From positions 3,286,001 to 3,350,000 of the forward strand of contig NZ_CP089293.1 of the NCBI RefSeq assembly GCF_021919345.1: a stretch of 64,000 nt of DNA. Reading direction: 5' to 3'. Positions 45,656 through 61,531 of this stretch are shown one piece after another (positions within the stretch are counted from its first letter, which is position 1; the number at the start of each line of letters is the position of its first letter). This stretch comes from Paenarthrobacter nicotinovorans (lineage in GTDB: Bacteria > Actinomycetota > Actinomycetes > Actinomycetales > Micrococcaceae). Position numbers and translations under genes: made by a program. The notes under the pieces were generated by a model, which had not been told where the DNA came from, searched no databases, and worked only from the letters and a program-made list of their open reading frames with translations.

Positions 45656-46100
45656 GGGAACTCCGGGACTCCATGGCTTGGACCGCGCGTGGGAGCCGTT
45701 GTGGCCCAGGTGCAGAAAGCGCAGCTATGTATAGGGAGGAGCACCGCCGCACTACGGCGGGGTGCGGTCCACCGCTGAGCCGGAGGAACGGAATTGCAAT
45801 AAACCCCTGCGAATTCAAATATAGGAATTGGGCATTGCCGGCTGCACGAGTAGGAGATACTCGACTTTCCCTGCAAGGGAAGCGCGGCGCTGTCAGGTAT
45901 TACGCAGTTTCCGGGAACGGACTACTTGGCAGTACTCAGGTCCCGGTTGATGGGACGTTGGCGGGGAGAGCTGCAGCCTTGCGCGCTTCACAGGACATTT
46001 ATTGTGCCCTGAACGGGTGTTTTCAGCGTATGCTCTCCTCAGCGCAGCTAAGACGGCGTCGTTCGCTTTTGGTGGGGCCACTTTTGAAGGCAGGGGTTCA
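45656..46100. other. Divergent intergenic region with hairpins
   Basis: About 445 bases lie between the LysM gene and the hybrid kinase. Two inverted repeats stand out: GCACCGCCGC-ACTA-CGGCGGGGTGC (45750-45775 area) and CGAGTA/TACTCG (about 45849-45865). The promoters of both genes must be here; I could not fix their -10 boxes. Confidence 0.45.
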
Positions 46101-49100
46101 GTGGCGGGAGTGAAGCACGAGGTTCTTTCGAAGCGCTCGTGGTCGGGACGCGGAATGCCGTTCTTCCTGATTGCGGTTGCCTTCTGCGCAGTACTGCTGG
46201 CCGTTGGCCTGGCAAGCGGAACCGGCACCAATACAGCCCAGCTCGCAGGTGACCTGGCGATCCTCACAGCCGTCCTGACGGCACTGACGACCCATACACG
46301 CGCAGCCCTCAAACAGCCGGTCAACGCTACGGGCCGCTGGTTCGTTGTGGCGGGACTGGCGCTCTGGTCTGTCGGCCAAGGCATCTGGACTTTCAACGGC
46401 ATCACCCTCGACCACGACTACCCTTTTCCGTCGTTCGCCGACTTCGGTTTTGTTTGGTACGCGGTACCGGCCTCCATTGGCTTGGTCCTGCTTTTGCGCG
46501 GACAGGGTTTGCGGCTGCCTTTGCGCCGGGCCATCCTCGACACGGGGGTAGTGGCAAGCTCCACGTTCTTCATCGCATGGAGTTCTGTCCTGGGTCCGCT
46601 GGCCGGTGCCAAGGACAGTGACGCCTTTGCCCGGATAACACAGATGGCCTACCCCATCGCAGACGTCCTTATGGTCTCCGTGGTCATCGTCCTCACCATG
46701 CGTGCGGCCCGGGGGCGCAGACTGCCGTGGCTAAGCCTTGGCATCGGTTTCTGGATCCTTGCCCTAACGGACCTCGCCTACATGCGGCTCACCCTGGAAG
46801 GCATTTCAGGTGTCACAGGATCGCCCTTGGCGCTGGGGTGGGTAGTAGCCTTCCTGCTGGTGGGCATAAGCCCGCTGGTGCCGGAAACCGGCAGCAATCG
46901 CAAGGACGGCCGCGGTTATGCCGCCGCCCTTGAGCTGCTCCCCTACCTCCCCGTTTTCAGTGCCGTGTTCTTCTCCCGGACCGGCCCCATCGGCGCCGAC
47001 CCCGTCCTGCTAGTCACCGGCCTGGTGGTCCTGGGGTTCGTCATCGTGCGCCAGGTGCTGATCGTCGTCGAAAATGTGACGCTCACACGCGACCTCGAGT
47101 CGAAAGTGGCCGAACGCACGGCCGAACTTGAGGGGCTGGGGGCGATCGTCAATTCCTCCGGCGACGCCATCGTCGGCGAAAGCCTGGACGGTGTCATCAC
47201 CAGTTGGAACCCCGGGGCCGAAAAAATCTTCGGGTATCCGGCCTCGGAGGTGATCGGCAGGAAGGGCGACTTCTTCATTCCGGCAGCTGCGCAGGAGGAA
47301 GAACGCCGGGCAATGGACGTCACAGCCCGGACCGGGGACGTGCAGAACTACGAAACGCAACGCCTTCGCGGTGATGGAACCACCATCCCTGTTTCCGTCA
47401 CTCTCTCCCCTGTACGGAACGCGTCCGGGATACGCGGAGTGGCCTTCATTTCGCGTGATATCACTGAACGCAAAGCCGCCGAATCCGAACTTATGGCCGC
47501 GCGGGAAGCCGCGTTGGAAGCAAGCAGACTCAAATCCGAATTCCTGGCCACCATGAGCCACGAGATCCGGACACCACTGAACGCCGTGATCGGGCTGACC
47601 TCATTGATGATGGACACGCCGCTCAGCGAAGGCCAACGGCAGTACGCCCAAGGTGTGAAGGGAGCCGGCGAAGTCCTCCTCACGCTGATCAACGACATCC
47701 TGGATTTCTCCAAACTCGAAGCCGGGAAAGTGGATCTGGAAGTCACCGCCTTCGACCCCCGGGCACTCGTGGAAGAAGTCGCCGGACTCGTGGCCGAGGC
47801 CGCACAAGGCAAAAATCTGGAACTCATCTCCTACTGCCATCCCGATGTTCCGGGACGGCTCATGGGCGACTCCGGCCGCATCAGGCAGATCCTGGTGAAC
47901 CTCTCCTCCAACGCCGTGAAATTCACCCCGTCCGGAGAAGTCGAAATCAAAGTCTCCGTGCTGGGGACAGATGCCGGTAACGCCTCGCTGCGCTTTGAAG
48001 TCCGTGACACGGGAATCGGCATCAGTGCCACCGACCACCACCGCCTGTTCGATTCCTTCGCCCAGGCAGATGCTTCAACTACGCGCCGCTACGGTGGAAC
48101 CGGGTTGGGGCTGGCCATATCCCGGCGGCTCACGGAAGCCATGGGCGGCCGCATCGGTGTGGACAGTGAGCTGGGCAACGGCAGCAAATTCTGGTTCGAA
48201 CTGGAACTGCCCATCGGACCGCCGGCCTCGGAAACTCTCACCCTGCCTGCTTCCCTGGCGGGCAAGAGGGTGCTGGTGGTGGACGACAACGCCACCAACC
48301 GCCTCGTGCTGGAGACCCAGCTGGACAGCTGGGGTATGACGCCGGTGGCTGTGGCCGATGCGTCCTCCGCGATGACCGAATACCGCAACGCCGTCCTGGA
48401 AGGCCACCCCTACGACATCGCCGTGGTGGACATGTGCATGCCGGACACCGACGGTCTGGAGCTGGCACGCCTCATCAACCATGAAAGCACCAACCCCGGA
48501 ACACCCGGGATCATCCTGCTGACCTCCACCATGTTGGTGGACAAAGTCGATCTGGCAGCAGCCGGGATCCGCGAGTACCTCACCAAACCCGTCCGCAGTT
48601 CCGAGTTCTACAACCGGCTCCTTCGCCTCATGGCCACCAGAACCATGCGTGCCCCCGCAGCACCGGCACCCTCAGCGGCCGCTCCGTCCGCCGAGCCGGT
48701 AGCACGGCTGGGAAAACTGCTCGTGGCAGAGGACAACGAGGTCAACCAGCTGGTGGCACGCGGCATGGCGAACCGCCTCGGTTACGGCGTGGACATCGTC
48801 GAAGACGGCGCACAAGCCGTGACGGCGGCCCTCACCGGGAACTACGCGGCGGTACTCATGGACTGCCACATGCCGGTCATGGACGGCTTCGACGCCACCC
48901 GCGCCATACGCGCCCGCAACGGGCATTCGGCCCGGATCCCCATCATCGCCATGACGGCCGGAGCCCTCAACGAGGACCGCGAGCGCTGCTTCGCTGCCGG
49001 CATGGACGACTACATCAGCAAACCCGTCGACCTCACTACTCTGGGAACCGTACTGGCGCGTTGGGTGCCGCAGTTGGAAGAACCGACGACGGCGGAAGCC

Positions 49101-49529
49101 GCCGCTGCTCCCACACCGCCCGCCGCCGGGGTGCCGCAGCCGGCGGAAGCACCGCCGTCGGACGCGGTTGTTCTCGACACCGGGAGGCTCCAGATCCTCC
49201 GCGAACTAGGACCCGACGACGGCGTGGGCCTGCTCCCGGCGGCCATCGAGGCCTTCCGGCAAGATGCCGGCGGCACGGTGGAGACACTGCGGTCAGCCAT
49301 CGACGCCGGGCAACCATCCGCCGTCGAAGCGGCCGCACACAAACTTGCAGGCGCAGCAGCCAACATCGGAGCCGTGGGCGCCGCAGCCTTGTGCCGGGAA
49401 CTGGAAACCCTTGGCCGGGAGAGCAGACCGGAGCTGGTCGCTGATGGAACGCGGCTGCTGGAGCGGCTGACCGCAGAACTGGCAAGGGTTGACCATGCCC
49501 TTGAGCGCATCTTATTGGGAGCCCTATGA
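46101..49529 (+). CDS. Hybrid sensor histidine kinase with two receivers and HPt
   Basis: The 1142-residue kinase starts at GTG 46101 after GAAGGCAGGGG. About 300 N-terminal residues form eight to nine membrane spans (an integral sensory domain). Then come a PAS domain (GAIVNSSGDAIVGESLDGVI), the dimerisation domain with His487 (ATMSHEIRTPLNAVIG), ATPase (SSNAVKF, GTGLGLAISRRL), receiver 1 with Asp777 (VVDMCMPDTDG), receiver 2 with Asp921 (LMDCHMPVMDG) and an HPt domain with His1080 (AAAHKLAGAAANIGA). It is a complete phosphorelay in one chain, whose final acceptor should be the GGDEF response regulator overlapping its stop by four bases. Confidence 0.9.
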   Translation: MAGVKHEVLSKRSWSGRGMPFFLIAVAFCAVLLAVGLASGTGTNTAQLAGDLAILTAVLTALTTHTRAALKQPVNATGRWFVVAGLALWSVGQGIWTFNGITLDHDYPFPSFADFGFVWYAVPASIGLVLLLRGQGLRLPLRRAILDTGVVASSTFFIAWSSVLGPLAGAKDSDAFARITQMAYPIADVLMVSVVIVLTMRAARGRRLPWLSLGIGFWILALTDLAYMRLTLEGISGVTGSPLALGWVVAFLLVGISPLVPETGSNRKDGRGYAAALELLPYLPVFSAVFFSRTGPIGADPVLLVTGLVVLGFVIVRQVLIVVENVTLTRDLESKVAERTAELEGLGAIVNSSGDAIVGESLDGVITSWNPGAEKIFGYPASEVIGRKGDFFIPAAAQEEERRAMDVTARTGDVQNYETQRLRGDGTTIPVSVTLSPVRNASGIRGVAFISRDITERKAAESELMAAREAALEASRLKSEFLATMSHEIRTPLNAVIGLTSLMMDTPLSEGQRQYAQGVKGAGEVLLTLINDILDFSKLEAGKVDLEVTAFDPRALVEEVAGLVAEAAQGKNLELISYCHPDVPGRLMGDSGRIRQILVNLSSNAVKFTPSGEVEIKVSVLGTDAGNASLRFEVRDTGIGISATDHHRLFDSFAQADASTTRRYGGTGLGLAISRRLTEAMGGRIGVDSELGNGSKFWFELELPIGPPASETLTLPASLAGKRVLVVDDNATNRLVLETQLDSWGMTPVAVADASSAMTEYRNAVLEGHPYDIAVVDMCMPDTDGLELARLINHESTNPGTPGIILLTSTMLVDKVDLAAAGIREYLTKPVRSSEFYNRLLRLMATRTMRAPAAPAPSAAAPSAEPVARLGKLLVAEDNEVNQLVARGMANRLGYGVDIVEDGAQAVTAALTGNYAAVLMDCHMPVMDGFDATRAIRARNGHSARIPIIAMTAGALNEDRERCFAAGMDDYISKPVDLTTLGTVLARWVPQLEEPTTAEAAAAPTPPAAGVPQPAEAPPSDAVVLDTGRLQILRELGPDDGVGLLPAAIEAFRQDAGGTVETLRSAIDAGQPSAVEAAAHKLAGAAANIGAVGAAALCRELETLGRESRPELVADGTRLLERLTAELARVDHALERILLGAL

Positions 49530-50437
49530 AGATCCTTATAGCGGACGACGACCAGATCTCCCGCATGATCACCAAAGCGGCCGTGGAACAATCCGGGCAT
49601 GACTGCATCGTGGCCGTGGACGGCGACTCGGCCTGGCAACTCTTCCAGGAGCACAGACCGGAAGCCGTGGTGACGGACCTGATCATGCCCGGGCTCAACG
49701 GGCTGGACCTCTGCCGTGCCATCCGGGCAGCGGAGAAGGACAGGTACACCTACGTCATCCTGGTGACCTCCCATGGCTCGCGGAAGGACGTCCTTGCGGG
49801 AATGGAAGCAGGAGCCGACGACTACGTCACCAAACCCCTGGACCCGTTCAGCCTGCACATCCGGCTCCTGGCCGCCCAGCGCATCACCTCGTTGCATGCG
49901 GACCTGGCCCGTTACCGTTCGGCCCTGACCGAGCAGGCACGCACGGACCCCCTCACCAAGGTGCACAACCGGCTGAAACTCTCCGAGGATCTGGGTGAGC
50001 TGCACGACGGGAGCCACGGCTACTGCCTGGCCATGGTGGATGTTGACAACTTCAAAAGCTACAACGACATCTATGGCCACCAAGCCGGGGATGCCGCGCT
50101 GGTGGCCATCGCCGCCACCCTTTCCGGCGAAATCCGGGCCACGGACGCCGTGTATCGGTTCGGTGGGGAAGAGTTCCTGTTGCTGCTCCGGGAACAGACG
50201 GCCACTACCGCGGAAACGGTCATGGAACGCGTGCGCTCAGCCGTGCACGATCTGCGGATCGAACACTCCGGCGACCCCGACGGCGTACTGACCATCAGCG
50301 CGGGAATCGCCGCTTCCTCGGGGGGCCACCCCGCCGGAACCGAACAGCTCCTGCGGGAGGCCGACCTCGCCTTGTACGCAGCCAAAGCTGCAGGCAGGAA
50401 CAGGGTGGCCCTTGCCCATAACTTCTATGCGGAATGA
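49526..50437 (+). CDS. Response regulator with GGDEF domain (diguanylate cyclase)
   Basis: A 303-residue protein: receiver at 1-120 (IADDDQIS, VVTDLIMPGLNGLDLC, YVTKPLDP) and GGDEF domain at about 140-300. The active site is GGEEF (213-217), a functional variant, and RATD ends five residues before it, the classic inhibitory site for product feedback. It makes c-di-GMP from GTP when phosphorylated, most likely by the hybrid kinase whose stop overlaps its ATG. It converges on the beta-helix gene at the end of the glycan locus. Confidence 0.92.
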   Translation: MKILIADDDQISRMITKAAVEQSGHDCIVAVDGDSAWQLFQEHRPEAVVTDLIMPGLNGLDLCRAIRAAEKDRYTYVILVTSHGSRKDVLAGMEAGADDYVTKPLDPFSLHIRLLAAQRITSLHADLARYRSALTEQARTDPLTKVHNRLKLSEDLGELHDGSHGYCLAMVDVDNFKSYNDIYGHQAGDAALVAIAATLSGEIRATDAVYRFGGEEFLLLLREQTATTAETVMERVRSAVHDLRIEHSGDPDGVLTISAGIAASSGGHPAGTEQLLREADLALYAAKAAGRNRVALAHNFYAE

Positions 50438-50498: not shown

Positions 50499-51767
50499 TC
50501 AGCATGTTCCTGTTTGTATGGTGTTGTTTCGTTTGATGTTGCTGGTGCCGGGTGCCAAGTGGATATCCCCTGCTGCACACGCCCTGTTGTCGGTGGCGAC
50601 CACGTTGGTGATCGGGCCTTGAGCGCCGAAGTCGCCTATGTGGATGGCGTCGTAGCTGCCTTCGGGGAGCACGTGACCGAATTCCAAATCGTGGATGTAG
50701 TTGCCGCTCAGGATCACCCCAGTGACTGCCCCGGTGCGGTTGTCATAATAGCCGGTACGGATACCGTACGGCGCCCCATAGAACTCGTTATCGGCGACTT
50801 TCAGGTTATAGATCGAGTGGTTGCCGACCGCTAGTTGCATGCTGCTGCCCCGGTGTCCGCCCCGGACCGTGTTCCCGATGTAGTTGATGTCGTGAGTGGT
50901 TCCATCGATGGTGTGGGCTACAAGGCCGTCGTCACCGTCGGTTCCAACGCGCTGGTCGATGGCATTGCTGATGACATCGCCGAAGGATGAGTCCAGGACG
51001 TGAATGCCGTCAAGCTGGTCATATTTGCCGCTCGTGACCACAACGGTGCTGCTGTTCGTAACACAGAACTTCGTGGTCCCGGCGGCGGCGATGGAGTATG
51101 TGAACGGGTTCTTTACATGCACCCCATCCACGAGGTTGTTGGAGCCGCCCCGGATGTCCACGACGTACTCGCTCAAGCGCCCGTCCAAACTGTTACTGGC
51201 TGGGAGGGTGTTGCCTGAATGGTCCGCCGTGAGGTTCGTGATCGTGGTATTCGTGGCGTAGTTGGTGGTGACAATGGGGTAACCACCGTACGGTCCTTTT
51301 GTCGACAGGAAATCCGGGCCTGCTTTGAGGATCGTGGCCGGGCCTGCGCCCTCCAGTTTCACATTGTTCGCCATTCTGAGCTTGCCGTTGATGATGTAGG
51401 TGCCTGCTACAAGTTTGACGACGCCGCCCCCGGCTGCTCCTGCGGCGTTGATGCGGTTTTGGATGGCGCTTGTGTCGTCCCCGGCATCGTTGACGGTAGT
51501 AGTGACTGTGTAGGCTCTGGTGGCGGTGCTGCCTGTCGCACCGCTCTTGGTGCATGCCGCATCCGCAGTTGTGGCCGTGGGAGCTGCTGACAGCGAAAAT
51601 GCCCGACCGGCTGTTGCTGTCGCCGTCGCCGTCGCCGTAGCAACAGGCGCCCCGGCCATGGCGAGTGAGGCAACTGTGGCCGCTACCGCCAAAGCGGTCC
51701 ACCGCCGTCGTGGTTGCGCCCCGGTACGGCGCATCGGCAGTCCCAATTCAATGTCAGCAGTTCCCAC
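50499..51767 (-). CDS. Secreted right-handed beta-helix protein (pectate-lyase-like)
   Basis: The 422-residue protein is taken from GTG 51767, which has GGGGGA five bases upstream; ATG 51734 is the other option. The signal peptide is ALAVAATVASLAMAGAPVA, followed by an Ala-Thr repeat. The mature part starts with TVNDAGDDTSAIQNRINAAG, a pectate-lyase-superfamily entry motif, then coils such as ILSGNYIHDLEFGH and NSLDGRLSEYVVDIRGGSNN. It could be a polysaccharide lyase, hydrolase or epimerase acting on the polymer made by the upstream glycosyltransferases. It lies 114 bases downstream of the PIG-L gene. Confidence 0.78.
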   Translation of the reverse strand: MGTADIELGLPMRRTGAQPRRRWTALAVAATVASLAMAGAPVATATATATATAGRAFSLSAAPTATTADAACTKSGATGSTATRAYTVTTTVNDAGDDTSAIQNRINAAGAAGGGVVKLVAGTYIINGKLRMANNVKLEGAGPATILKAGPDFLSTKGPYGGYPIVTTNYATNTTITNLTADHSGNTLPASNSLDGRLSEYVVDIRGGSNNLVDGVHVKNPFTYSIAAAGTTKFCVTNSSTVVVTSGKYDQLDGIHVLDSSFGDVISNAIDQRVGTDGDDGLVAHTIDGTTHDINYIGNTVRGGHRGSSMQLAVGNHSIYNLKVADNEFYGAPYGIRTGYYDNRTGAVTGVILSGNYIHDLEFGHVLPEGSYDAIHIGDFGAQGPITNVVATDNRACAAGDIHLAPGTSNIKRNNTIQTGTC

Positions 51768-51881
51768 TGCGATCCCCCAAAGTGTCAAGACGCTCCGTCG
51801 GCGCCGTTCGCCGGACTCTGCGTATGGACACACTCGCCGGGCAAAACGATGAACCTCGTCCCGTGGATAACGTCAGTGAAG

Positions 51882-52688
51882 TCACCATCCGGCATCGGCC
51901 CCGGGAACAAAGTAGCTTTCCGGTTTCCGTGGAATCCCGCCGTCGGGAAAGAGCGCCTCTACCTGGGAGGCGTACTGCCTGATCCGACGCTGTTTCCCGG
52001 CAAGCCCGTCGTCCCAGGACCAGGGCTCGTATCCCAGCTGGTTCATGAACCGTGAATCGTGTCCGGCCTGGAGGTCGTAGGGGAAATCCGAGTACATCAC
52101 CAGCCTGTCCCGATGGTCCGTCCCCAGTTGGCGGGTAATCAGATGGTCCACGTGTTTCCCCACGCCAGCCGGGCAGAAGAGCAGCTCCGCCTGAGTCTCC
52201 GCCAGCAGCGTGGCGACGGTGGCTCCGAGCGAGCGGATGAGCCCCTTGTCCCCACGCGAAACCCTGCCCTGGGCGATGTCGAAGCGGTAGGTGGGGTAAC
52301 GGTGGGTGAACTCCGGAAGGAGCCGGTCCCATGCGCTGCTCCCCCACCGCGCCGGCCGCCGTCGACGCCGGAAGAGGGCATCCACGGCCCCGAGGTGAAG
52401 GGACTGAACGCCCATGTCCGTCAGGACCTCCCGGTCCTCACTTTGCCGGGCCCTGTAAAGGCCACCGGCGTCCCCCACCACGCATTGGCGCAGGAACGAC
52501 CCCGCAGCCCTGGTGTGCGGGCCGGGATCTGCGTCGGAGAACAGCGTGGCCACCACTATTTGGCGGCCACGGGCCTGGGCTTCCATCAGCGCTCCGCAGG
52601 ACAACACGGCATCGTCGAGGTGAGGGGAAAGGACCAGCCAGGGCGCATCCCCGGCCATGGACCGTTCGATCCTGTTAAGGAGTTGCAC
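51882..52688 (-). CDS. PIG-L family deacetylase
   Basis: The 268-residue zinc-dependent N-deacetylase fold has SPHLDDAVLSCG with the zinc-binding H-x-D-D and a late HVDHLI giving the third ligand His. Family members remove acetyl from N-acetylglucosamine lipids or thiol precursors; in a glycosyltransferase operon it is best seen as a glycan or lipid-sugar deacetylase. GTG 52688 has GGAAGGGG upstream and begins one base after the stop of the preceding GT4. Confidence 0.85.
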   Translation of the reverse strand: MQLLNRIERSMAGDAPWLVLSPHLDDAVLSCGALMEAQARGRQIVVATLFSDADPGPHTRAAGSFLRQCVVGDAGGLYRARQSEDREVLTDMGVQSLHLGAVDALFRRRRRPARWGSSAWDRLLPEFTHRYPTYRFDIAQGRVSRGDKGLIRSLGATVATLLAETQAELLFCPAGVGKHVDHLITRQLGTDHRDRLVMYSDFPYDLQAGHDSRFMNQLGYEPWSWDDGLAGKQRRIRQYASQVEALFPDGGIPRKPESYFVPGADAGW

Positions 52689-52689
52689 G

Positions 52690-53814
52690 TCAAGCCCCTT
52701 CCCCGGATGCGGTCGGTTTCAGGGTTGCCACCGCGTCCTTGTACGCTGCAGCCTGGCGCTCGGCCAACACGTCCCAGTCATACGCAGCGGCGAACCGGCG
52801 TCCCTCTGCTGCCACCCCGTCAAGCGCCGGCTCCGTGTATCGGAGGGCGATCTCATCAGCCAGCTTGGCGACGTTCAGCGCTTCGACCAGCCAGCCGACA
52901 CCCGTCGGGACGATCTCACGGAGGCAGGGGATGTCGAAGGCAATCACGGGGGTCCCCACCGCCAAGGCGTCGATGGCAACCAATCCGAAGGTTTCGTGCC
53001 GGGACGGCACCACCACGAGCCGCGCATCGCTCAGCGCCTGGAACTTTTCGTCACCTGACAACCATCCGAGCATCCGCACGCGTCCACACAGTCCCGTCTC
53101 CCGGATGCCTTCGCGGAACCTGGCTTCATCCGGACCCGTGCCGGCCACCAGCAGGTCGCCATCCACCCGGTCACAGCATTGCGCCCAGGCTTCCAGGAGG
53201 AGGTCCAGGCCTTTGTGGCCGTACTCCAGGCGGCCAATGAACATGACGTCCTTCCCCCGATGTGGAATGGGTTTCCACGCGGCCGGGTCCACGCCATTTC
53301 CGATCACGTCCACGTGGAGGCGCGGATTCAGCTGCGTCAACCGCTCCGCGATTCCCTGCGAAACAGAGATGAGCCTCCGGTGCGAGCGCACCCCCAGCCG
53401 CTCGAGCCAGTGCAAGGGGAGTTTGTACTGCCGCGCCTTCTCCCTGGCATGGAGCCACTGGACAACCCCGATGGTGGGGCGCCGGGTCCAGAGCGGTGCG
53501 GCCATCGTTGAGAAGGGGGCAAAAAAGTCCTCCACCACCAGGTCTGTCTTCCCGTGCCTCCTGAGGGTTTCAAACGGCAAACACAGAACATACGCCAGGA
53601 GCCTGGACAGCCGGTTGCGGCCTTCCCCGAGGCCAATGGGGACGTAGTGGACCCCGTCCTGGACACGCTCTTCCCATCCTGGATACCGGGTGGTGAGGAC
53701 CGTTACGTCGAAACCCCTCGCCGCCAGCCGTTGGTTTATCTCGTGGGTCCTCACGGATCCTCCGCCGGCTCCTGGCATGCGTGGATCTTCGAAGCCCAGA
53801 TGCAGTACTCTCAT
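52690..53814 (-). CDS. Glycosyltransferase family 4
   Basis: This 374-residue GT-B enzyme has an N-terminal acceptor domain that opens with a Gly-rich loop (FEDPRMPGAGGGSVRTHEIN). The C-terminal donor domain shows MFIGRLEYGHKGLDLLLEAW, VAGTGPDEARFREGI and the E-x7-E region VPSRHETFGLVAIDALAVGT. It adds a sugar from a nucleotide donor on the cytoplasmic face. Its ATG directly abuts the stop of the flippase fusion (TAGATG), so translation is probably coupled. Confidence 0.9.
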   Translation of the reverse strand: MRVLHLGFEDPRMPGAGGGSVRTHEINQRLAARGFDVTVLTTRYPGWEERVQDGVHYVPIGLGEGRNRLSRLLAYVLCLPFETLRRHGKTDLVVEDFFAPFSTMAAPLWTRRPTIGVVQWLHAREKARQYKLPLHWLERLGVRSHRRLISVSQGIAERLTQLNPRLHVDVIGNGVDPAAWKPIPHRGKDVMFIGRLEYGHKGLDLLLEAWAQCCDRVDGDLLVAGTGPDEARFREGIRETGLCGRVRMLGWLSGDEKFQALSDARLVVVPSRHETFGLVAIDALAVGTPVIAFDIPCLREIVPTGVGWLVEALNVAKLADEIALRYTEPALDGVAAEGRRFAAAYDWDVLAERQAAAYKDAVATLKPTASGEGA

Positions 53815-56800
53815 CTATTTTTCCGTTCCGTAGCTTTTGGAGGGCTCACCGATGTTGGTCATCGCCGCCTGTTCGAGATCAGCCGGTTCGACAAACCAGA
53901 TGGTCGTTTCGCCGTTGGTCGGGCCCGGCGTCGAGACCAAGGGCCTTGCATGCTCCTTCAACCAGGCGAGCATGGTGGGATTGGCATAGCCGTAGCCTTG
54001 GCTGGTGGGTTTGGATTGGGTCAGGATGTAGCTGGCCCCGTTCTGCTTCATCAGGGGCGCCGAAGGCCAGATACCAAACCGCGGGTCATCCAGATAGGCG
54101 AAGTGGCCTGTGCTGTTGGTGACGCTGATCCGTGCGTCCGCTGGCAGGTTCGCCTGCACCCAGTCGTTGGACCGGACGAAGCCGTTGTCCACCGTCAATT
54201 CAGTCCGAAGACCCAGCACCACGGTCAACGCCACGAAACAGACGCTGACGACGCCAAGGGTTCTGCGTGCGCGGTGGTATCTCTCTTTGAGCTCCACCAC
54301 CACAATGACCGAACACAACGCGCCGGCCACCATGACGCCGTACCCGTACTGTTCCTCAAAGGTGCCAAACCCCGCGCTGTAGACGCCGGCGGCTCCCAGG
54401 GCCAAGCCGCCCAGCCCGACCAGTCGCCTCCCGGCATGATGGCTGAAGCACAGGACGAGTCCCACCAGCGGGCACAGGCCCAGCAGAAGATAGCTCGTGC
54501 CGAAATGCCCGCTTTGCTCAATAAGGCGCGACACCAAGCTCGGTGATCCCTCAGAAGTGAAGCCGGTGGTCTTCTCCACACCGGACATGCGCACCAGCCC
54601 GTGGGTCTTTGCCCACACCCAATCGGAAAAATGACCGCCGGCGGCAACCACCAGCAAGTAGCTTGCATAAGGCAGTACGCCGAAGACTGTCAGCACCAGC
54701 GCTTCCCGCCACGGAAGGGTCTTCTTCCACACAACGGCGGCCAGCACGGGAGCCAGCGTGCAAATGAAGAAGAAGTCCTTGCACAGGATGGAGTACCCGA
54801 ACAACAATCCGGCAGCCATCAATCTGAGGAACCATCGCGCCCTGCTCCCAGGCTCGCGGGCGCCCACAAGCAACAACATCCCGGCCAGCGCGGGAACCAT
54901 GGCAGATGTCTCAAGGAAGGCGTGGCTGTTGTTGCGCAGGATGAACGGTTCAAAGGCCAGGAGCACGGCGGTAAGCCAGGCAGCGGTCTTCGTGGCCAGA
55001 TGGCCGACCAACAAGAATCCGAGCCCCACGGTGACAGCCCCCAGAACGCCGTTGAGCCACCGTAGCTGCAGCGTCACATCGATGATGTCCCCGAAAATGC
55101 CTAACACCTTGATGACTCCCGCTTCAAGCAGGAAATATCCGGGCGGATGCAGGAAGAACGGCCCGTCCGGCAGCGTGGGAAACATGCCGTTGCTGACCGA
55201 CTCCCCCAGCCGCACATACAACATTTCATCCACCCACAACTCGAAGCCGCGCTCCAGCCCCAGCGCCCGGACACCGAACGCTGCGACAACAACCCAGCCG
55301 ACTGCCAGTGATTTATTGGACGCTCCTCTTCTGATCCAGGCCGGCAGGCGCCCCGCGCGCCGGGATCCCGTGTGGTTGGACCGACGGCCGGAACTCCTTC
55401 TACGGGCACCCTGAGTGCGGCGGCGGAAAAACTTGAAGTCGTTCCTGTGGGGCAGCAAACCGCGCTGGTGTGCCAACACAGCGACCCCGCTGATCATGGC
55501 GGGCAGAAGCCAAAGCAGTGGCTGCAGGTGGGCGGCCACGCCGAGGACCACGATCAGGGCGACCGCCAGGATGGCAAAACGGCCTGCTCCCTTTCCGGGG
55601 TTGGCGTTGGCCAGCACAGGGCGGGCCAGAACAGCCATGACCAAGGCCGCCGACACTGCCCCGGCCGCGGCACCTGCCGCCATGCCCGGTACCCTGTTCA
55701 ACTCCCATCCAACCCAAAGCCCGCCAACCAGCAAGAGGCATGCACATGCGAGGCCCAGTTGGCATCGGCGATAGGCGCGCACAGCCAGAAGGATCGTGGA
55801 AAGCACCATCAGGACGGCATAACCGAGACCTGATGCGGCCAGCCACGGGAGGAGGTCAATGGAACCGTGGTACTTCCGGGGAATCACCAGGCCGGCCAGC
55901 AGAGGCGGTGCCGTGGCAATGATGGCAAAGGCCACCACGGCCAACTGCCCGAACGAGGAAAAGGCTCCGGCAAGAATCCGGCCAACATCAGCGCCAGGGC
56001 TCCGCAACAAGGGGAATGCCACCAGCGCGGTTCCGGCCGCCACATAGACGGGCCCCTTGGCCAAGGTGGAGAGGGCCTGGAACCCAGCCGCTGCCACCGA
56101 TCCCTGGTCCAGGAAACCAACCACCACCACGTCCATGCCCACCAGCACAGACACGACGCAGAGAACTGAGGCGATGTCGCTGGTTTCCGCCCAACGCCAT
56201 TTCTCACGCAGCACCCTGGGACGCCAGCGCAGGTCACGGTAGAAAGCCGGCGGTACCACCAAACCCGCCAAGGCCCCCACCGCGAAGCCCGTCACCGCGC
56301 CCCCGGCACCCCAAGCCAGCACGGCCACCACCAGGCTGACAAGCAGCCTGACCACAACCTCGGCCACGGTTCCCACGGCGTACCACGTAAAGCGCAATTC
56401 GCCCTGGAGCCATCCGGCAGGCACCGCCACCACAAAAATCGTGAAGGAGGCCAAGCCGACAGCAAGAGCCATGGAGGGAGTACCAATGACGAGAGTGAGG
56501 CAGCCTGTCACGATGGCTGCCACCAGCCCTGCCAGACACGACACAAAGACCGAGAACGACAAACCATCCCGCCGCCCCTCCGAGCCCTCCGCGTGAACAG
56601 CCACGGTGTGGGAAAGAGGAAGGGGAACCAACGCAGCGGCGACGATGCCCACAATGCCTACCAGCATCGCGGCCGCTGCGAACAGGCTGTAATCAGTGGT
56701 TGGAAGCAGGGCCGCCATCAGCAACGTGCAGGCGTAGCTGACCACCCCGACTACACCGGCCGAGACCGCAAGAAGGCCACTGTTCTGCGATACATTCGTG

Positions 56801-56892
56801 CCTTGGTCCGGCGTTCGGTTGGCGCGGCCGCCTGTGTCCGCCTCCCGGGAAGGGAAAGGTGCGGTGTCCGCGTCCACGGAGCTATTGGCCAT
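53815..56892 (-). CDS. Fusion of polysaccharide flippase-like and GT-C (GT39-like) glycosyltransferase
   Basis: This is one uninterrupted frame of 1025 residues. Residues about 38-490 have 12-14 membrane spans in the pattern of MOP/Wzx-type flippases (LLAVSAGVVGVVSYACTLLM near the start). Residues about 490-540 are a very basic linker (RRRTQGARRRSSGRRSNHTG). From about 540 a GT-C transferase begins: FELWVDEMLYVRLGES carries the Asp-Glu of the first outer loop typical of GT39/ArnT enzymes, then LHPPGYFLLE and further spans, ending in a soluble domain with VTNSTGHFAYLDD. One chain could thus flip a lipid-linked glycan and transfer a polyprenyl-phosphate sugar outside. Confidence 0.82.
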   Translation of the reverse strand: MANSSVDADTAPFPSREADTGGRANRTPDQGTNVSQNSGLLAVSAGVVGVVSYACTLLMAALLPTTDYSLFAAAAMLVGIVGIVAAALVPLPLSHTVAVHAEGSEGRRDGLSFSVFVSCLAGLVAAIVTGCLTLVIGTPSMALAVGLASFTIFVVAVPAGWLQGELRFTWYAVGTVAEVVVRLLVSLVVAVLAWGAGGAVTGFAVGALAGLVVPPAFYRDLRWRPRVLREKWRWAETSDIASVLCVVSVLVGMDVVVVGFLDQGSVAAAGFQALSTLAKGPVYVAAGTALVAFPLLRSPGADVGRILAGAFSSFGQLAVVAFAIIATAPPLLAGLVIPRKYHGSIDLLPWLAASGLGYAVLMVLSTILLAVRAYRRCQLGLACACLLLVGGLWVGWELNRVPGMAAGAAAGAVSAALVMAVLARPVLANANPGKGAGRFAILAVALIVVLGVAAHLQPLLWLLPAMISGVAVLAHQRGLLPHRNDFKFFRRRTQGARRRSSGRRSNHTGSRRAGRLPAWIRRGASNKSLAVGWVVVAAFGVRALGLERGFELWVDEMLYVRLGESVSNGMFPTLPDGPFFLHPPGYFLLEAGVIKVLGIFGDIIDVTLQLRWLNGVLGAVTVGLGFLLVGHLATKTAAWLTAVLLAFEPFILRNNSHAFLETSAMVPALAGMLLLVGAREPGSRARWFLRLMAAGLLFGYSILCKDFFFICTLAPVLAAVVWKKTLPWREALVLTVFGVLPYASYLLVVAAGGHFSDWVWAKTHGLVRMSGVEKTTGFTSEGSPSLVSRLIEQSGHFGTSYLLLGLCPLVGLVLCFSHHAGRRLVGLGGLALGAAGVYSAGFGTFEEQYGYGVMVAGALCSVIVVVELKERYHRARRTLGVVSVCFVALTVVLGLRTELTVDNGFVRSNDWVQANLPADARISVTNSTGHFAYLDDPRFGIWPSAPLMKQNGASYILTQSKPTSQGYGYANPTMLAWLKEHARPLVSTPGPTNGETTIWFVEPADLEQAAMTNIGEPSKSYGTEK

Positions 56893-58324
56893 CGATTACA
56901 TCAGCCGGAGCAAACAGGCTTTCGGGTCCGGCAAGAAGCGTGTAGCGGCCCGCCTGGCGAAGTTCCGGATTGGCAACGCCAATGCTCTGTGCTGCAGCGA
57001 AAGCCTCGAATTCGTCGCGTCCCTTCATCAGGATCGCCACGCGCCCGTCACTGCTCAGGGCTACTTCATCGGTAGGCCGCAGAATCGACTTGAGGGATGC
57101 TCCGTGCGGCAGTTCGAAACGAACCAGGGTGGAGAGATCCGAGTGACAGGCCCGGGGATCTCCACCGTCCCGCCGCAACTTCTCCTCTTCCAGCAGCACC
57201 CCCGTGAGCAACCTGGTGCTGCGCTCCCAAGTGAAACAACGGGCCCACTCACGGCACTCATCCGCAATGTCCGTGAAACTGCCCGGCTGGGACAACGTGG
57301 CCATGACTTGAACCATGGTGCGGCCAATATCTGCAGGGTTGTCCACCAGCCAGCCTGTCCTGCCATCAACCACCGAGTCCCGTATTCCGGGCACGCGAAG
57401 CGCCAGGCAGGGAACTCCCCAGGCCGCGGCCTCAACCACCGAACAACCCCAGCCTTCGGAGGCCGAGGTGGAAGCTGTCAGCCAGGCCCTGCCCAGCAGT
57501 TCGTCGCGGACGCCGTCGGGCTGATAACCATGGAATGTCACTGCATGATCCAGGCCAAGATCCATCGCGATCTGCTGCAAACGTGCCCGTTCCGGCCCGT
57601 CCCCAACGATGTCCATCCTCAGGTTCGGAACGCTTCGTGCGGCAACGGCGAACTGGCCCAGCAGCAGATCCAGCCGCTTATGCGGCACCAAACGGCTGAC
57701 GACGGCGACGGTTGGCTCAGTTGCCCGTGTGGCCACTGCCTTGGGGATGTCGATGGTGCCGTTCGGAACCACGTGGATGGGGCTTCCAAAGCCAAGCTTC
57801 CGCAATTCCAGCCGCGTTGACGGTGACACCGCAACCATCGAGCGCCGCCCGTAGACCCTCTTGGCTCCTGCACTCTCCAGGAACCTGCCCACGGCAGCCA
57901 ACGGTGGAGAGAACCTGCTGCGGAACTGCTCCTGATGGACGTGGTGCACCAGCTGGATGATCGGAACATCCTTGGGCAGGAACAGCGGGGAAAAGAACGG
58001 AATCCCGTTCTGGCAATCCACCACGGCGTCAAACTGTCCGGCGCTGCGCAGGAGTCTGGCTGCGGTCTTTCCGTAGATGGACAGCGGTCCGCCGGCACGG
58101 AGTATCCGGATGCCGTCGATTGCATCCTCCGGCAACTGACCGGCGTCGCGCGCTGTGAACCAGGTGACCTTTACGCCGCTGTCCACCCACCTCTTGGATA
58201 TCTGGTGCATGTATTGCTCGGCACCGCCGGCAAGGGAGTGCCGGATATCGCGCCAGTTGAGCACCAGCACCCGCTTTCCAGCAAGCCTCGCGGGAGAGTT
58301 CATGTCGGGCAGGGCAAAGGTCAT
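56882..58324 (-). CDS. Glycosyltransferase family 4 with C-terminal extension
   Basis: A 480-residue GT-B enzyme. Acceptor side: LNWRDIRHSLAGGAEQYMHQ; donor side: VAVVSRLVPHKRLDLLLGQF, MDIVGDGPERARLQQIA, and the E-x7-E region STSASEGWGCSVVEAAAWGV. The catalytic part ends near residue 385. An extra domain of about 85 residues follows (LVRFELPHGASLKSILRPTD, VAILMKGRDEFEAFAAA) of unknown role. It overlaps the flippase fusion by 11 bases and starts inside the GT2 stop (ATGA). Confidence 0.88.
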   Translation of the reverse strand: MTFALPDMNSPARLAGKRVLVLNWRDIRHSLAGGAEQYMHQISKRWVDSGVKVTWFTARDAGQLPEDAIDGIRILRAGGPLSIYGKTAARLLRSAGQFDAVVDCQNGIPFFSPLFLPKDVPIIQLVHHVHQEQFRSRFSPPLAAVGRFLESAGAKRVYGRRSMVAVSPSTRLELRKLGFGSPIHVVPNGTIDIPKAVATRATEPTVAVVSRLVPHKRLDLLLGQFAVAARSVPNLRMDIVGDGPERARLQQIAMDLGLDHAVTFHGYQPDGVRDELLGRAWLTASTSASEGWGCSVVEAAAWGVPCLALRVPGIRDSVVDGRTGWLVDNPADIGRTMVQVMATLSQPGSFTDIADECREWARCFTWERSTRLLTGVLLEEEKLRRDGGDPRACHSDLSTLVRFELPHGASLKSILRPTDEVALSSDGRVAILMKGRDEFEAFAAAQSIGVANPELRQAGRYTLLAGPESLFAPADVIDGQ

Positions 58325-59118
58325 GATGTTGCTTTCTGAAGTTGGATCACTGATGCGAAGCTGGCAACGCCATCGTGGAAGGGACGGAAAGTGGACTCAG
58401 CACCATCCGTCCAGGCCACGGGGAGTTCGATGATCCTCGCGCCGTTGTTCTGTAGCCGCAGGAGGAGTTCGACATCGAAGGCGAAGCCCGTGCTCCGGCA
58501 CTGCACCATGGCCGCGGTGAGCGCGTCGCGTTCGAAGAACTTGAAACCGCACTGGGTGTCCTGGATCCCCTTGACCTTGGAGCGCGTCAATACCCGGAAG
58601 GCTGTGCCTCCCATCCGGCGTCCCAAATGCTGGGGCCGCACAAAGGTGGAACCGGGCGAATGGCGCGAGGCAATGACGGCGGCTGCGCCGCGCGAGAGAT
58701 GGGCCATGGTCTTGCTGAGTGTTTCCAGCGGAGTGGCGAGATCGGCATCGAAGAAGCCGGTGAATTTCGATGTTCCGCTCAGCAGGCCACGGCGGACTGC
58801 CGCCCCCTTGCCCCGGCGGGCGCAGCCCACCACGGACACCGGCACGATGCCGCGCTGTTCACGGGAGATCCGGCGCACCACGGCGGCTGTCTCATCCACA
58901 CTGCCGTTGTCCACCACCACGATGCGCGACGACCATGCCTGGCCGGCCAGGAAGTCGATGGTTTGGTGCAGGGTGTGGGGAATCCTGGCGGCCTCGTTGT
59001 AGGCAGGAATGATGACCTCAAGGTCCACGACGGACCGGCGCATGGATTCGGAGGGCCACCGGGGATGAGGATTCCCTCTCTTGCCGGGGTGAAAACTTTG
59101 CGGGTAAAGCGTGAACAT
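58321..59118 (-). CDS. Glycosyltransferase family 2, polyprenyl-phosphate sugar synthase-like
   Basis: This 265-residue GT-A enzyme starts at ATG 59118 with GGAGG five bases upstream; the longer frame upstream is unsupported. Motifs: EVIIPAYNEAARIP, IVVVDNGSVDETAAVV, FFDADLATPLETL (DxD-type metal site) and the dolichyl-phosphate-glucose-synthase-like GIQDTQCGFKFFERDA. It has no C-terminal membrane spans, like Alg5/GtrB cores. It probably loads a sugar onto polyprenyl phosphate as donor for the GT-C half of the fusion protein. First gene of the operon. Confidence 0.88.
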   Translation of the reverse strand: MFTLYPQSFHPGKRGNPHPRWPSESMRRSVVDLEVIIPAYNEAARIPHTLHQTIDFLAGQAWSSRIVVVDNGSVDETAAVVRRISREQRGIVPVSVVGCARRGKGAAVRRGLLSGTSKFTGFFDADLATPLETLSKTMAHLSRGAAAVIASRHSPGSTFVRPQHLGRRMGGTAFRVLTRSKVKGIQDTQCGFKFFERDALTAAMVQCRSTGFAFDVELLLRLQNNGARIIELPVAWTDGAESTFRPFHDGVASFASVIQLQKATS

Positions 59119-59311
59119 CCGAACCTCCAACTTTCCGGGCACCGTACGAAATCGTGCTCGCCTATAAGCAGTGGGGGTGCTGCGCGAGTCATGACGCAGA
59201 TCCGCGAGGATCTCCCGGGAGATGGGGTCGCTCCCGGCTTCCCCGGGACGTGCCCGGCGCTCTGAGCGAAATTGCTGGTTCAGTGTCGGAGCGCGTCTAT
59301 AGAGTGGCCCC

Positions 59312-61531
59312 ATGAGCCACATTTCTTCTGCATCCCCGGTAACCCGCGAAACTGTTCCGGAGCCGCCCGTTGCCAAGCGGGTTCCCACCCGGCGGGAACA
59401 TCACGGCGATGTTTTCGTGGACCAGTACGAGTGGCTCCGGGACAAGGAATCACCGGAAGTCGTGGAGCACCTGAAAGCGGAGAACGCCTACCAGGAGGCC
59501 GTGACTGCGCACCAGGAGCCATTGCGCGAAGCGATGTTCCAGGAGATCAAGGGCCGCACCCAGGAAACGGATCTTTCGGTCCCCAGCCGCAAGGATGGCT
59601 GGTGGTACTACAGCCGCTCGGTGGAGGGCAAGGAGTACAGCATCCAGTGCCGCGTCCTGGCCCGGAACACGGGCGATCCCGTGGCGGACTGGACTCCCCC
59701 GGCCGTGGAGGCCGGCGTGGAACTGCCCGGCGAGGAAGTGCTCCTTGACGGCAACATCGAAGCCGAGGGCCAGCCGTTCTTCAGCGTCGGCGGCGCTGCC
59801 GTGACCGTGGATGGCAACCTCTACGCCTACGCAGTGGACAACTCCGGGGACGAACGATTCACTCTGCGGATCAAGGACCTGCGCACAGGCGAACTCCTTC
59901 CGGATGTCATTGAGGACATTTTCTACGGGGTTGCCTTCTCCCCGGACGGCACCAGGCTCTTCTACACAGTGGTGGACGAGTCGTGGCGGCCCTACCAGGT
60001 CAAGGCCCACGTCCTGGGCACGCCCGTCACCGAGGATGAGGTTCTCTACCAGGAGGACGACGTCGCCATGTGGCTGGGCTTCGACCTCGCCTCCGACCGT
60101 CGCCACCTCGTGCTCAGCATCGGCTGCTCGGAGTTCAGCGAAACCCGCCTGCTTCGTTTCGACGACTACGAATCCGGCCTCAGCACCGTCATTCCACGTG
60201 AAGAGCACATTCTCTACGAGGCCGAGCCCTTCCTCCTGGACGGCCGGGAAACCCTGCTCCTGACCCACAACAAGGACGCCATCAACTCGATGGTCAGCCT
60301 GGTGGACCCGGCGGAGCTCACCAAGCCCATCGCCGCGCAGAACTGGCGTACCGTCGTCGCGCATTCGGACGACGTCAGGGTCAACGGCGCAGGCGTGACC
60401 TCCACCCATCTGGTTCTTTCCATCCGCAAAGACACCATCGAAAGGGTGCAGGTGCTGCCGTTGGCAGGGCTGGGCACCCCGGCTCAGGGCGCACCCGTGG
60501 AGCCGGCCTTCGACGAAGAGCTCTACACGGCAGGCGTTTCGGGCTCGGATTATGAAGCCCCCGTGATCCGGATGGGCTACACCTCCTACTTCACACCGTC
60601 ACGGGTGTACGACTTCGTCCTCCCCACTCCCGGGCTGCCCGATGGCCAGCTTCTGCTCCGCAAGCAAAGCCCCGTCCTGGGCGGCTACTCCTCTTCCGAC
60701 TACGTGGCGACGCGCGAATGGGCAACGGCCGACGACGGCACCCGGGTCCCGTTGTCGGTACTGCGTCACGCTTCGGTACAGCCTGACGGCACTGCGGCGG
60801 GTCTCGTCTACGGATATGGCTCGTACGAGGTCAGCATGGACCCCGGATTCGGCGTGGCGCGGTTGTCACTCCTGGACCGCGGCATCGTCATGGTCATCGC
60901 CCATATCCGGGGCGGCGGCGAACTGGGACGCCACTGGTACGAGGACGGGAAGAAGCTCAACAAGAAGAACACCTTCACGGACTTCATTGCCGCAACGGAC
61001 TGGCTGGCATCCTCGGGCTTGGTCGACCCCTCGCGTATTGCCGCAATGGGCGGCTCCGCAGGCGGACTGCTGATGGGCGCCGTCGCCAACATGGCCCCCG
61101 AAAAGTACGCTGCGGTGGTGGCGCAGGTCCCGTTCGTGGACGCCCTGACCACCATCCTGGACCCCGAGCTGCCTTTGTCCGCCCTCGAATGGGAGGAATG
61201 GGGAAACCCGATTACCGATCCCCAGGCGTATGCGTACATGAAGTCCTACACTCCCTACGAGAATGTGGGAGCCACGGCCTATCCAAAGATCGCCGCTGTG
61301 ACGTCCTTCAATGACACCCGTGTGCTTTACGTTGAACCGGCCAAGTGGGTCCAGGCTCTACGCGCCACCTCCACTGGGACGGAGCCGATCGTCATGAAGA
61401 TCGAGATGGACGGCGGCCACGGTGGCGCGTCTGGCCGCTACGTGCAGTGGCGCGAGCGTGCCTGGGACTACGCCTTCGTGGCCGACTCCCTGGGCGCCAC
61501 GAAACTGCTTCCGGGAGCCGGCCTCAAGTAG
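59312..61531 (+). CDS. ptrB: Oligopeptidase B (S9A prolyl oligopeptidase family)
   Basis: This 739-residue serine peptidase cleaves short peptides after basic residues. A beta-propeller fills about 80-430 and the alpha/beta hydrolase domain the rest. The triad is Ser582 in MGGSAGGLLMG, Asp668 in SFNDTRVLY and His703 in MDGGHGGASGRY. HIRGGGELGRHWYEDGKKLN is a strong family marker. No signal peptide, so cytoplasmic. It diverges from the glycan operon over about 190 bases and overlaps the methyltransferase by eight bases at its end. Confidence 0.95.
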   Translation: MSHISSASPVTRETVPEPPVAKRVPTRREHHGDVFVDQYEWLRDKESPEVVEHLKAENAYQEAVTAHQEPLREAMFQEIKGRTQETDLSVPSRKDGWWYYSRSVEGKEYSIQCRVLARNTGDPVADWTPPAVEAGVELPGEEVLLDGNIEAEGQPFFSVGGAAVTVDGNLYAYAVDNSGDERFTLRIKDLRTGELLPDVIEDIFYGVAFSPDGTRLFYTVVDESWRPYQVKAHVLGTPVTEDEVLYQEDDVAMWLGFDLASDRRHLVLSIGCSEFSETRLLRFDDYESGLSTVIPREEHILYEAEPFLLDGRETLLLTHNKDAINSMVSLVDPAELTKPIAAQNWRTVVAHSDDVRVNGAGVTSTHLVLSIRKDTIERVQVLPLAGLGTPAQGAPVEPAFDEELYTAGVSGSDYEAPVIRMGYTSYFTPSRVYDFVLPTPGLPDGQLLLRKQSPVLGGYSSSDYVATREWATADDGTRVPLSVLRHASVQPDGTAAGLVYGYGSYEVSMDPGFGVARLSLLDRGIVMVIAHIRGGGELGRHWYEDGKKLNKKNTFTDFIAATDWLASSGLVDPSRIAAMGGSAGGLLMGAVANMAPEKYAAVVAQVPFVDALTTILDPELPLSALEWEEWGNPITDPQAYAYMKSYTPYENVGATAYPKIAAVTSFNDTRVLYVEPAKWVQALRATSTGTEPIVMKIEMDGGHGGASGRYVQWRERAWDYAFVADSLGATKLLPGAGLK

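Follow-up and report, generated by a model that had tools for sequence, protein, structure and literature searches.

In the described systems closest to the locus reported here, namely Citrobacter ORF15/14/12, streptococcal GacI/J-K-L, lactococcal WpsA/B-G-J and Haloferax AglD-R-S, the flipped lipid is the donor of the GT-C glycosyltransferase, according to the sections of the reports consulted (PMC11127046, PMC10821137, PMC3871713). According to the same sections, these separate-protein systems move a sugar carried on a lipid monophosphate across the membrane; in lactococci, the cargo is an oligosaccharide built up from such a sugar. The consulted part of PMC10821137 covers the lactococcal series WpsA/B, GTs, WpsG (Wzx-like) and WpsJ (GT-C) and the streptococcal GacI/J-K-L: a GT2 loads polyprenyl phosphate, as we propose here, cytosolic GTs may extend the product, a Wzx-type flippase exports it, and a GT-C puts it on the wall glycan. 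The scheme is the same, but unlike the fusion described below, flippase and GT-C are separate proteins. Separate proteins also make up the pentofuranose system of Citrobacter youngae (ORF15 synthase, ORF14 MATE-family flippase, ORF12 GT136 GT-C), which otherwise resembles our locus in its lipid-phosphate donor, its MATE/MOP flippase and its GT-C (PMC11127046, consulted sections). Haloferax AglD, AglR and AglS similarly comprise a synthase, a flippase-type protein for dolichol-phosphate mannose and an outside-acting transferase; unlike our locus, this system is archaeal, consists of separate proteins and has a known product, the final mannose of an N-glycan (PMC3871713, consulted sections).

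How do flippases pass lipid-linked sugars to outward-facing transferases? The answer is uncertain. A natural fusion of the two, together with relatives that carry the flippase alone or with another GT-C, offers matched material for asking whether they act as a unit and whether the flipped lipid is donor or acceptor. The parts and the pathway type are already known; new, as far as searched, is their fusion in flippase-GT-C order, of which we found no description among PMC papers (a scope outside which subscription journals and preprints fall).

The window, by which we mean the whole analysed stretch of 64,000 nucleotides, comes from the soil bacterium Paenarthrobacter nicotinovorans and contains the following fusion gene.

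53815..56892, minus strand: MOP flippase::GT-C fusion gene (P0001), a single open frame of 1025 aa
55465..56796, minus strand: MOP flippase half, residues 33-476, with 14 predicted spans and both ends predicted cytosolic
55315..55464, minus strand: charged cytosolic linker, residues 477-526, with 16 K+R and 1 D+E
53860..55350, minus strand: GT-C half, residues 515-1011, with a C-terminal alpha/beta extracytoplasmic part
55225..55236, minus strand: codons of W553 V554 D555 E556 in outer loop 1, with the presumed catalytic acid pair

An earlier note on this DNA had read the frame as a flippase joined to a GT-C transferase, and this observation is confirmed by an AlphaFold2 model and fold comparison, in which both halves match their families. 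Residues 33-476 have the MOP fold of MurJ and WzxE, with a span number within the 12-14 typical of it, at an identity of no more than 14%; unlike the window protein, MurJ and WzxE have a known diphosphate-linked cargo and no fused enzyme. Residues 515-1011 have the GT-C fold of ArnT and PMT, which share the acid pair in outer loop 1 but are at most 14-15% identical and have no flippase attached. The linker is modelled with pLDDT below 50 at residues 498-523, and the relative placement of the two halves reaches a pTM of only 0.67. Fold comparison was needed because sequence-profile searches of the PDB found no significant relative of the whole fusion, of the GT-C half (best match Pmt4, E 0.2) or of a distant family of fusions, family B, described below. 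It is by fold that both halves match their families, which the earlier note had set as a condition for its reading. In Pfam searches the window protein scores only marginally, a point against our functional reading: PF01943 gives 22.5 bits against a curated cut-off of 28.2 (27.1 in a genome search), with relatives P0003 (34.7) and P0006 (31.2) above the cut-off and P0018 (25.0) below it, and PF02366 matches the relative L065 (44.9 bits) but not the window protein. PF13231 exceeds its cut-off of 26.1 in one search (27.3 bits) and is absent from the hmmscan list. Annotation pipelines name only one half of such fusions: at NCBI they appear as 'oligosaccharide flippase family' in some cases and as 'glycosyltransferase family 39' in others.

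The WVDE motif reported for the first outer loop was located there as W553 V554 D555 E556. Its acidic residues, which we take to be the catalytic pair from what is known of GT39/ArnT enzymes, are kept in 59/60 aligned relatives, lie on the outer side as judged by loop charges, and are invariant in 13/13 GT-C sequences, fused and separate. The alignments further show that the GT-C half keeps its D-E, HPP, K-D and E-Q motifs. In the MOP half, the charged residues D254 and K279 are conserved in 60/60 and 59/60 relatives, respectively. The linker of these 60 relatives varies from 19 to 100 aa (median 47), with a net charge of +1 to +20 (median 8).

Could the frame result from a lost stop or a mis-assembly? 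The marginal sequence-family scores would be compatible with such an artefact, but in a protein search both halves were directly joined, in the same order, in 66/94 homologues from independent named genomes and metagenomes, and 13 of 30 named loci hold an intact fusion. We regard an artefact as practically negligible; the lost stop that the earlier note had considered is rejected, as the same fusion recurs in homologues and named loci. That note had also proposed to look for the same domain order in other actinobacteria, and it indeed recurs in Paenarthrobacter, Arthrobacter and Kocuria, with Pseudonocardia likewise among the named hosts. The 66 joined proteins are 65 classified ones plus P0002, which is 99% identical, and they take in the eroded P0064 and P0067 and the likely fragments P0031 and P0068. 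Four of the remaining homologues have a GT4-like domain between the halves, 17 are flippase::GT4 fusions, and 7 carry a single half or are built otherwise. Because the search admitted lengths of 0.55-1.75 times the query, lone flippases are missing and its counts are not frequencies; scoring covered the 7993 candidates with the most words in common.

The other named loci comprise one eroded fusion (L053), seven flippases alone (L048-L052, L054, L055), two loci whose halves are separated from each other, one on each strand (L059, L060), three with flippase::GT4 and a separate GT-C (L061, L062, L067), and four in Geodermatophilus with all genes separate (L063-L066). The earlier note had named close relatives with two separate genes and a stop in the linker as evidence against its reading. 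Relatives with separate genes do exist, but no stop in the linker was seen: the separation arises by later deletion of the GT-C, by halves lying apart on opposite strands, or is simply there, as in Geodermatophilus. A phylum-wide draw of 396 genomes gave 18 with any match and no full-length fusion besides that of the window's own genome, the longest other frame being one of 848 aa that matches the GT-C half only; the architecture is thus narrow in that draw. Within the family, where two candidates per genome were scored, 19/395 genomes match, with 15 intact fusions, one eroded, one flippase alone and two split. Two copies of the fusion cassette occur in the P. aurescens TC1 record (L041 and L042) and in Arthrobacter sp. 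fls2-241-R2A-200 (L040 and L043).

The fusion gene is the third gene of a six-gene, single-strand operon in the order GT2, GT4, [flippase::GT-C], GT4, PIG-L deacetylase, beta-helix protein, with successive intergenic gaps of -4, -11, 0, 1 and 48 bases. Its partners are as follows.

58321..59388, minus strand: GT2, polyprenyl-phosphate-sugar-synthase-like (PF00535, 71.6 bits), conserved domain from about residue 119
56882..58324, minus strand: GT4 glycosyltransferase a (PF00534, 104.5 bits), overlapping the fusion gene by 11 bases
52690..53814, minus strand: GT4 glycosyltransferase b (PF13692, 100.8 bits), abutting the fusion gene
51882..52688, minus strand: PIG-L family de-N-acetylase (PF02585, 45.3 bits)
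50499..51833, minus strand: right-handed beta-helix / polygalacturonase-like protein, probably exported (weak NCBIfam matches below cut-off, no Pfam match)

The nearest PDB sequences of the GT2 are dolichol-phosphate mannose synthase 5mlz (E 1.9e-10), ArnC and sll0501, and its NCBIfam matches are far under their cut-offs; those of the PIG-L enzyme are glycopeptide pseudoaglycone deacetylases. Homologues of GT4b are fused to the flippase in other actinobacteria. Across the 30 named loci, the gene set is present as GT2 in 29, GT4a in 29, flippase in 30, GT-C in 29, GT4b in 28 and PIG-L in 26; the beta-helix gene is found at 15, its place in the gene order being kept only in part. The GT2 lies close to the flippase at 29/30 of these loci, the exception being L056/G440, where some 26 kb separate it from the fusion. 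Its neighbours on either side are a prolyl oligopeptidase and a GGDEF response regulator on the other strand. Positions 46002-50437, beside the operon and on the plus strand, encode a large hybrid histidine kinase together with a response regulator that has a GGDEF domain, both facing the operon's end. Promoter and terminator scans of the sequence stayed at chance level.

What, then, might such a protein do? At a probability of about 0.55, our preferred reading is that the fusion unites two arms, flippase and GT-C, of a three- or multi-component extracytoplasmic glycosylation system, with the flipped lipid as the donor of the GT-C. For flipping, cargo identity, catalysis, acceptor and any kinetic coupling, we infer the following course. 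The GT2 would load a sugar onto polyprenyl phosphate at the inner face, where extension by the two GT4s and de-N-acetylation by the PIG-L enzyme may follow. The 14-span MOP half would flip this lipid-monophosphate-linked sugar or short glycan, and the GT-C half, with D555/E556 facing outward, would use it as donor and transfer it to an acceptor in the cell envelope. By holding the two membrane domains together, the charged cytosolic linker should favour local hand-over. By homology, a GT2/GT-A-type polyprenyl-phosphate sugar synthase does stand beside flippase and GT-C, as in three-component systems; the GtrA-type flippase of the prototype is absent from the operon, the flippase here being of MOP type. 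The lack of a phosphoglycosyl transferase, Wzz and Wzy among the six operon genes (Pfam), which sets the operon apart from a Wzx/Wzy-pathway cluster, and the presence of a Wzx/Wzy locus elsewhere also count for donor hand-over. That locus is found at 2.18-2.20 Mb, with Wzy_C at 62.3 bits and Wzz at 21.2 bits, the latter below its cut-off. PF02397 occurs at just two places in the genome, 2.185 Mb and 3.277 Mb. The second of these belongs to another glycan cluster, 59 kb from the operon, which combines the phosphoglycosyl transferase with two multi-span proteins that have no Pfam match and look like a flippase and a polymerase.

The earlier note had taken the flipped glycan to be the thing modified. 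Applied to this operon, that idea would have the MOP half flip a lipid-linked oligosaccharide or glycolipid assembled by the two GT4s and the PIG-L enzyme, and the GT-C decorate it from a GT2-made lipid donor flipped by another protein. Two GT4s and a deacetylase do suggest a glycolipid of several sugars and fit an acceptor as well as an elaborated donor, which counts against our preference; three GtrA-type proteins encoded elsewhere in the genome could flip the donor. The operon, however, has no GtrA of its own, and in the consulted sections of the reports cited above the MOP/MATE and GT-C pairs act on the donor. A GT2 of the donor-making type, moreover, co-occurs with the flippase. In a sample of 45 genomes chosen from earlier genome searches, a GT2 orthologue (63-100% identity) was present in 22/22 genomes with this flippase and in 0/23 same-genus genomes without it, where the best listed matches reach no more than 35%. 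It is in one frame in 21/22; in G418 it is split over two frames with the flippase still there, and this break and the distant GT2 of L056/G440 count against donor delivery. Also among the genomes with GT2 are the four that lost the fused GT-C, and in G008, G034 and G387 it is intact at 89-90% identity despite the lost or eroded GT-C. The GT2 stays with the flippase whether the GT-C is lost or exchanged, which suits a donor that is constant and a transferase that can change; exchange of the GT-C beside an unchanged flippase would also suit an acceptor that stays the same. Given the described systems and the co-occurrence of GT2, the cargo of the flippase half is more likely the donor of the GT-C than its acceptor; acceptor hand-over seems to us a lesser prospect, unsupported in the form first proposed, and the earlier reading as a whole is partly supported.

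How did the fusion arise, and how firmly is it kept? Trees were built by quick searches with SH-aLRT only, from rows thinned to 74 for the flippase and 66 for the GT-C; P0002, the fragments P0031 and P0068, P0059, P0061 and most near-identical fusions were dropped from both. In the flippase tree, the fused Micrococcaceae proteins form one clade of 45 rows (SH-aLRT 99), beside P0075 and P0076, in both of which the flippase ends in a truncated GT4; the surrounding branches hold flippase::GT4 proteins and flippases on their own. Nine lone flippases fall inside the fused clade. The trees give one main fusion clade, in which deletion, erosion or separation of the GT-C half came later. Deletion is visible at the DNA level: L050 and L047 align at 88-92% in their flanks, and 1548 bases with the GT-C half are absent from L050, where 96 unmatched bases stand instead and the arginine-rich tail remains.

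In P0064, P0067 and L053 the GT-C half lacks the outer loop bearing the acid pair and HPP; their frames are open and their branches long, and these halves are possibly pseudo-enzymes. Four three-domain proteins of about 1370-1400 aa (P0063, P0069, P0071, P0072) carry a flippase, a GT4-like domain and a GT-C, and may represent steps on the way to the two-domain fusion; in P0063, P0069 and P0072 the GT4-like domain has lost the glutamate expected of the GT4 motif. Such cases would suit a reading in which one half is an inactive scaffold, but the window protein keeps the acid pair, HPP, the other invariant residues and D254 and K279 of the MOP half, and we consider a scaffold very improbable.

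Twice the fused GT-C has been exchanged for one of 40-45% identity with the flippase half unchanged. P0063 and P0069 share 85.7% up to the GT-C and 43.9% within it; P0062 and four Paenarthrobacter/Arthrobacter relatives share 67-70% before the GT-C and 39-41% in it, and in the trees the flippase of P0062 groups with Paenarthrobacter but its GT-C with the other GT-C clade. The control pair P0018/P0026 gave 77.8 and 84.5%. A separate GT-C of this other clade, defined by at least 65% identity to the L050 copy, is found in 4/4 genomes without an intact fused GT-C (G008, G034, G387, G418), in 2/16 with an intact fusion and in 0/2 split ones (one-sided Fisher 0.003, by hand; the genomes are related). 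Arthrobacter sp. 18067 and P. nitroguajacolicus SM1928 have a lone-flippase locus (L051 and L055, respectively) and a further locus where the fusion is intact (L057 and L044), which together with the broken GT2 of G418 argues against a simple replacement story. The window's own genome holds a second GT-C gene of the other clade (G000 C1:2242002-2243447; L095 8000-9649), an orphan among unrelated genes outside any glycan cluster. A plasmid origin was rejected; the GT-C had a single weak match on a replicon from Streptomyces.

The tether is dispensable, as natural variants do without it, and channelling therefore cannot be obligatory; that it speeds transfer is our guess. Does the fusion, then, reflect anything beyond neighbouring genes that became joined, with equal amounts and a shared location as the only consequence? 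Tolerated loss and relocation of the GT-C half and linker lengths of 19-100 aa agree with mere co-expression. Neighbours here also fuse readily, since flippases of the same family are joined to GT4 (17/94), to GT4 plus GT-C (4/94) and to PIG-L (P0093). Against this, the flippase-GT-C order recurs in the main clade, P0062, the three-domain proteins and a distant family, and many lineages retain it, at 49-77% identity. We find uncoupled co-expression unlikely and prefer donor hand-over to it as well as to acceptor hand-over. Similarly doubtful is a far-reaching version of donor hand-over, a flip-and-transfer enzyme that would pass the lipid-linked sugar on directly, with no release into the outer leaflet, its constant flippase and exchangeable GT-C making up a modular writer of surface glycans whose linkage changes by the swap of one domain.

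The distant family B (P0090, P0091 and P0095-P0123; 31 proteins of 1143-1543 aa) has the same domain order as the window family and is collinear with it over 952 columns (hhalign E 2.9e-54), but differs in its identity of 23-26% and an extra C-terminal part, and is uncharacterised. Nearer relatives than family B, in Geodermatophilus and Pseudonocardiales, are not fused in this way. Further combinations occur around the same flippases. P0092 and P0094 are flippase::GT4 proteins fused to an NRPS-like adenylation and carrier domain, in P0092 with a thioesterase as well, and P0093 (757 aa) joins a flippase of the same broad family to a PIG-L deacetylase, a pair of activities also present in the window operon.
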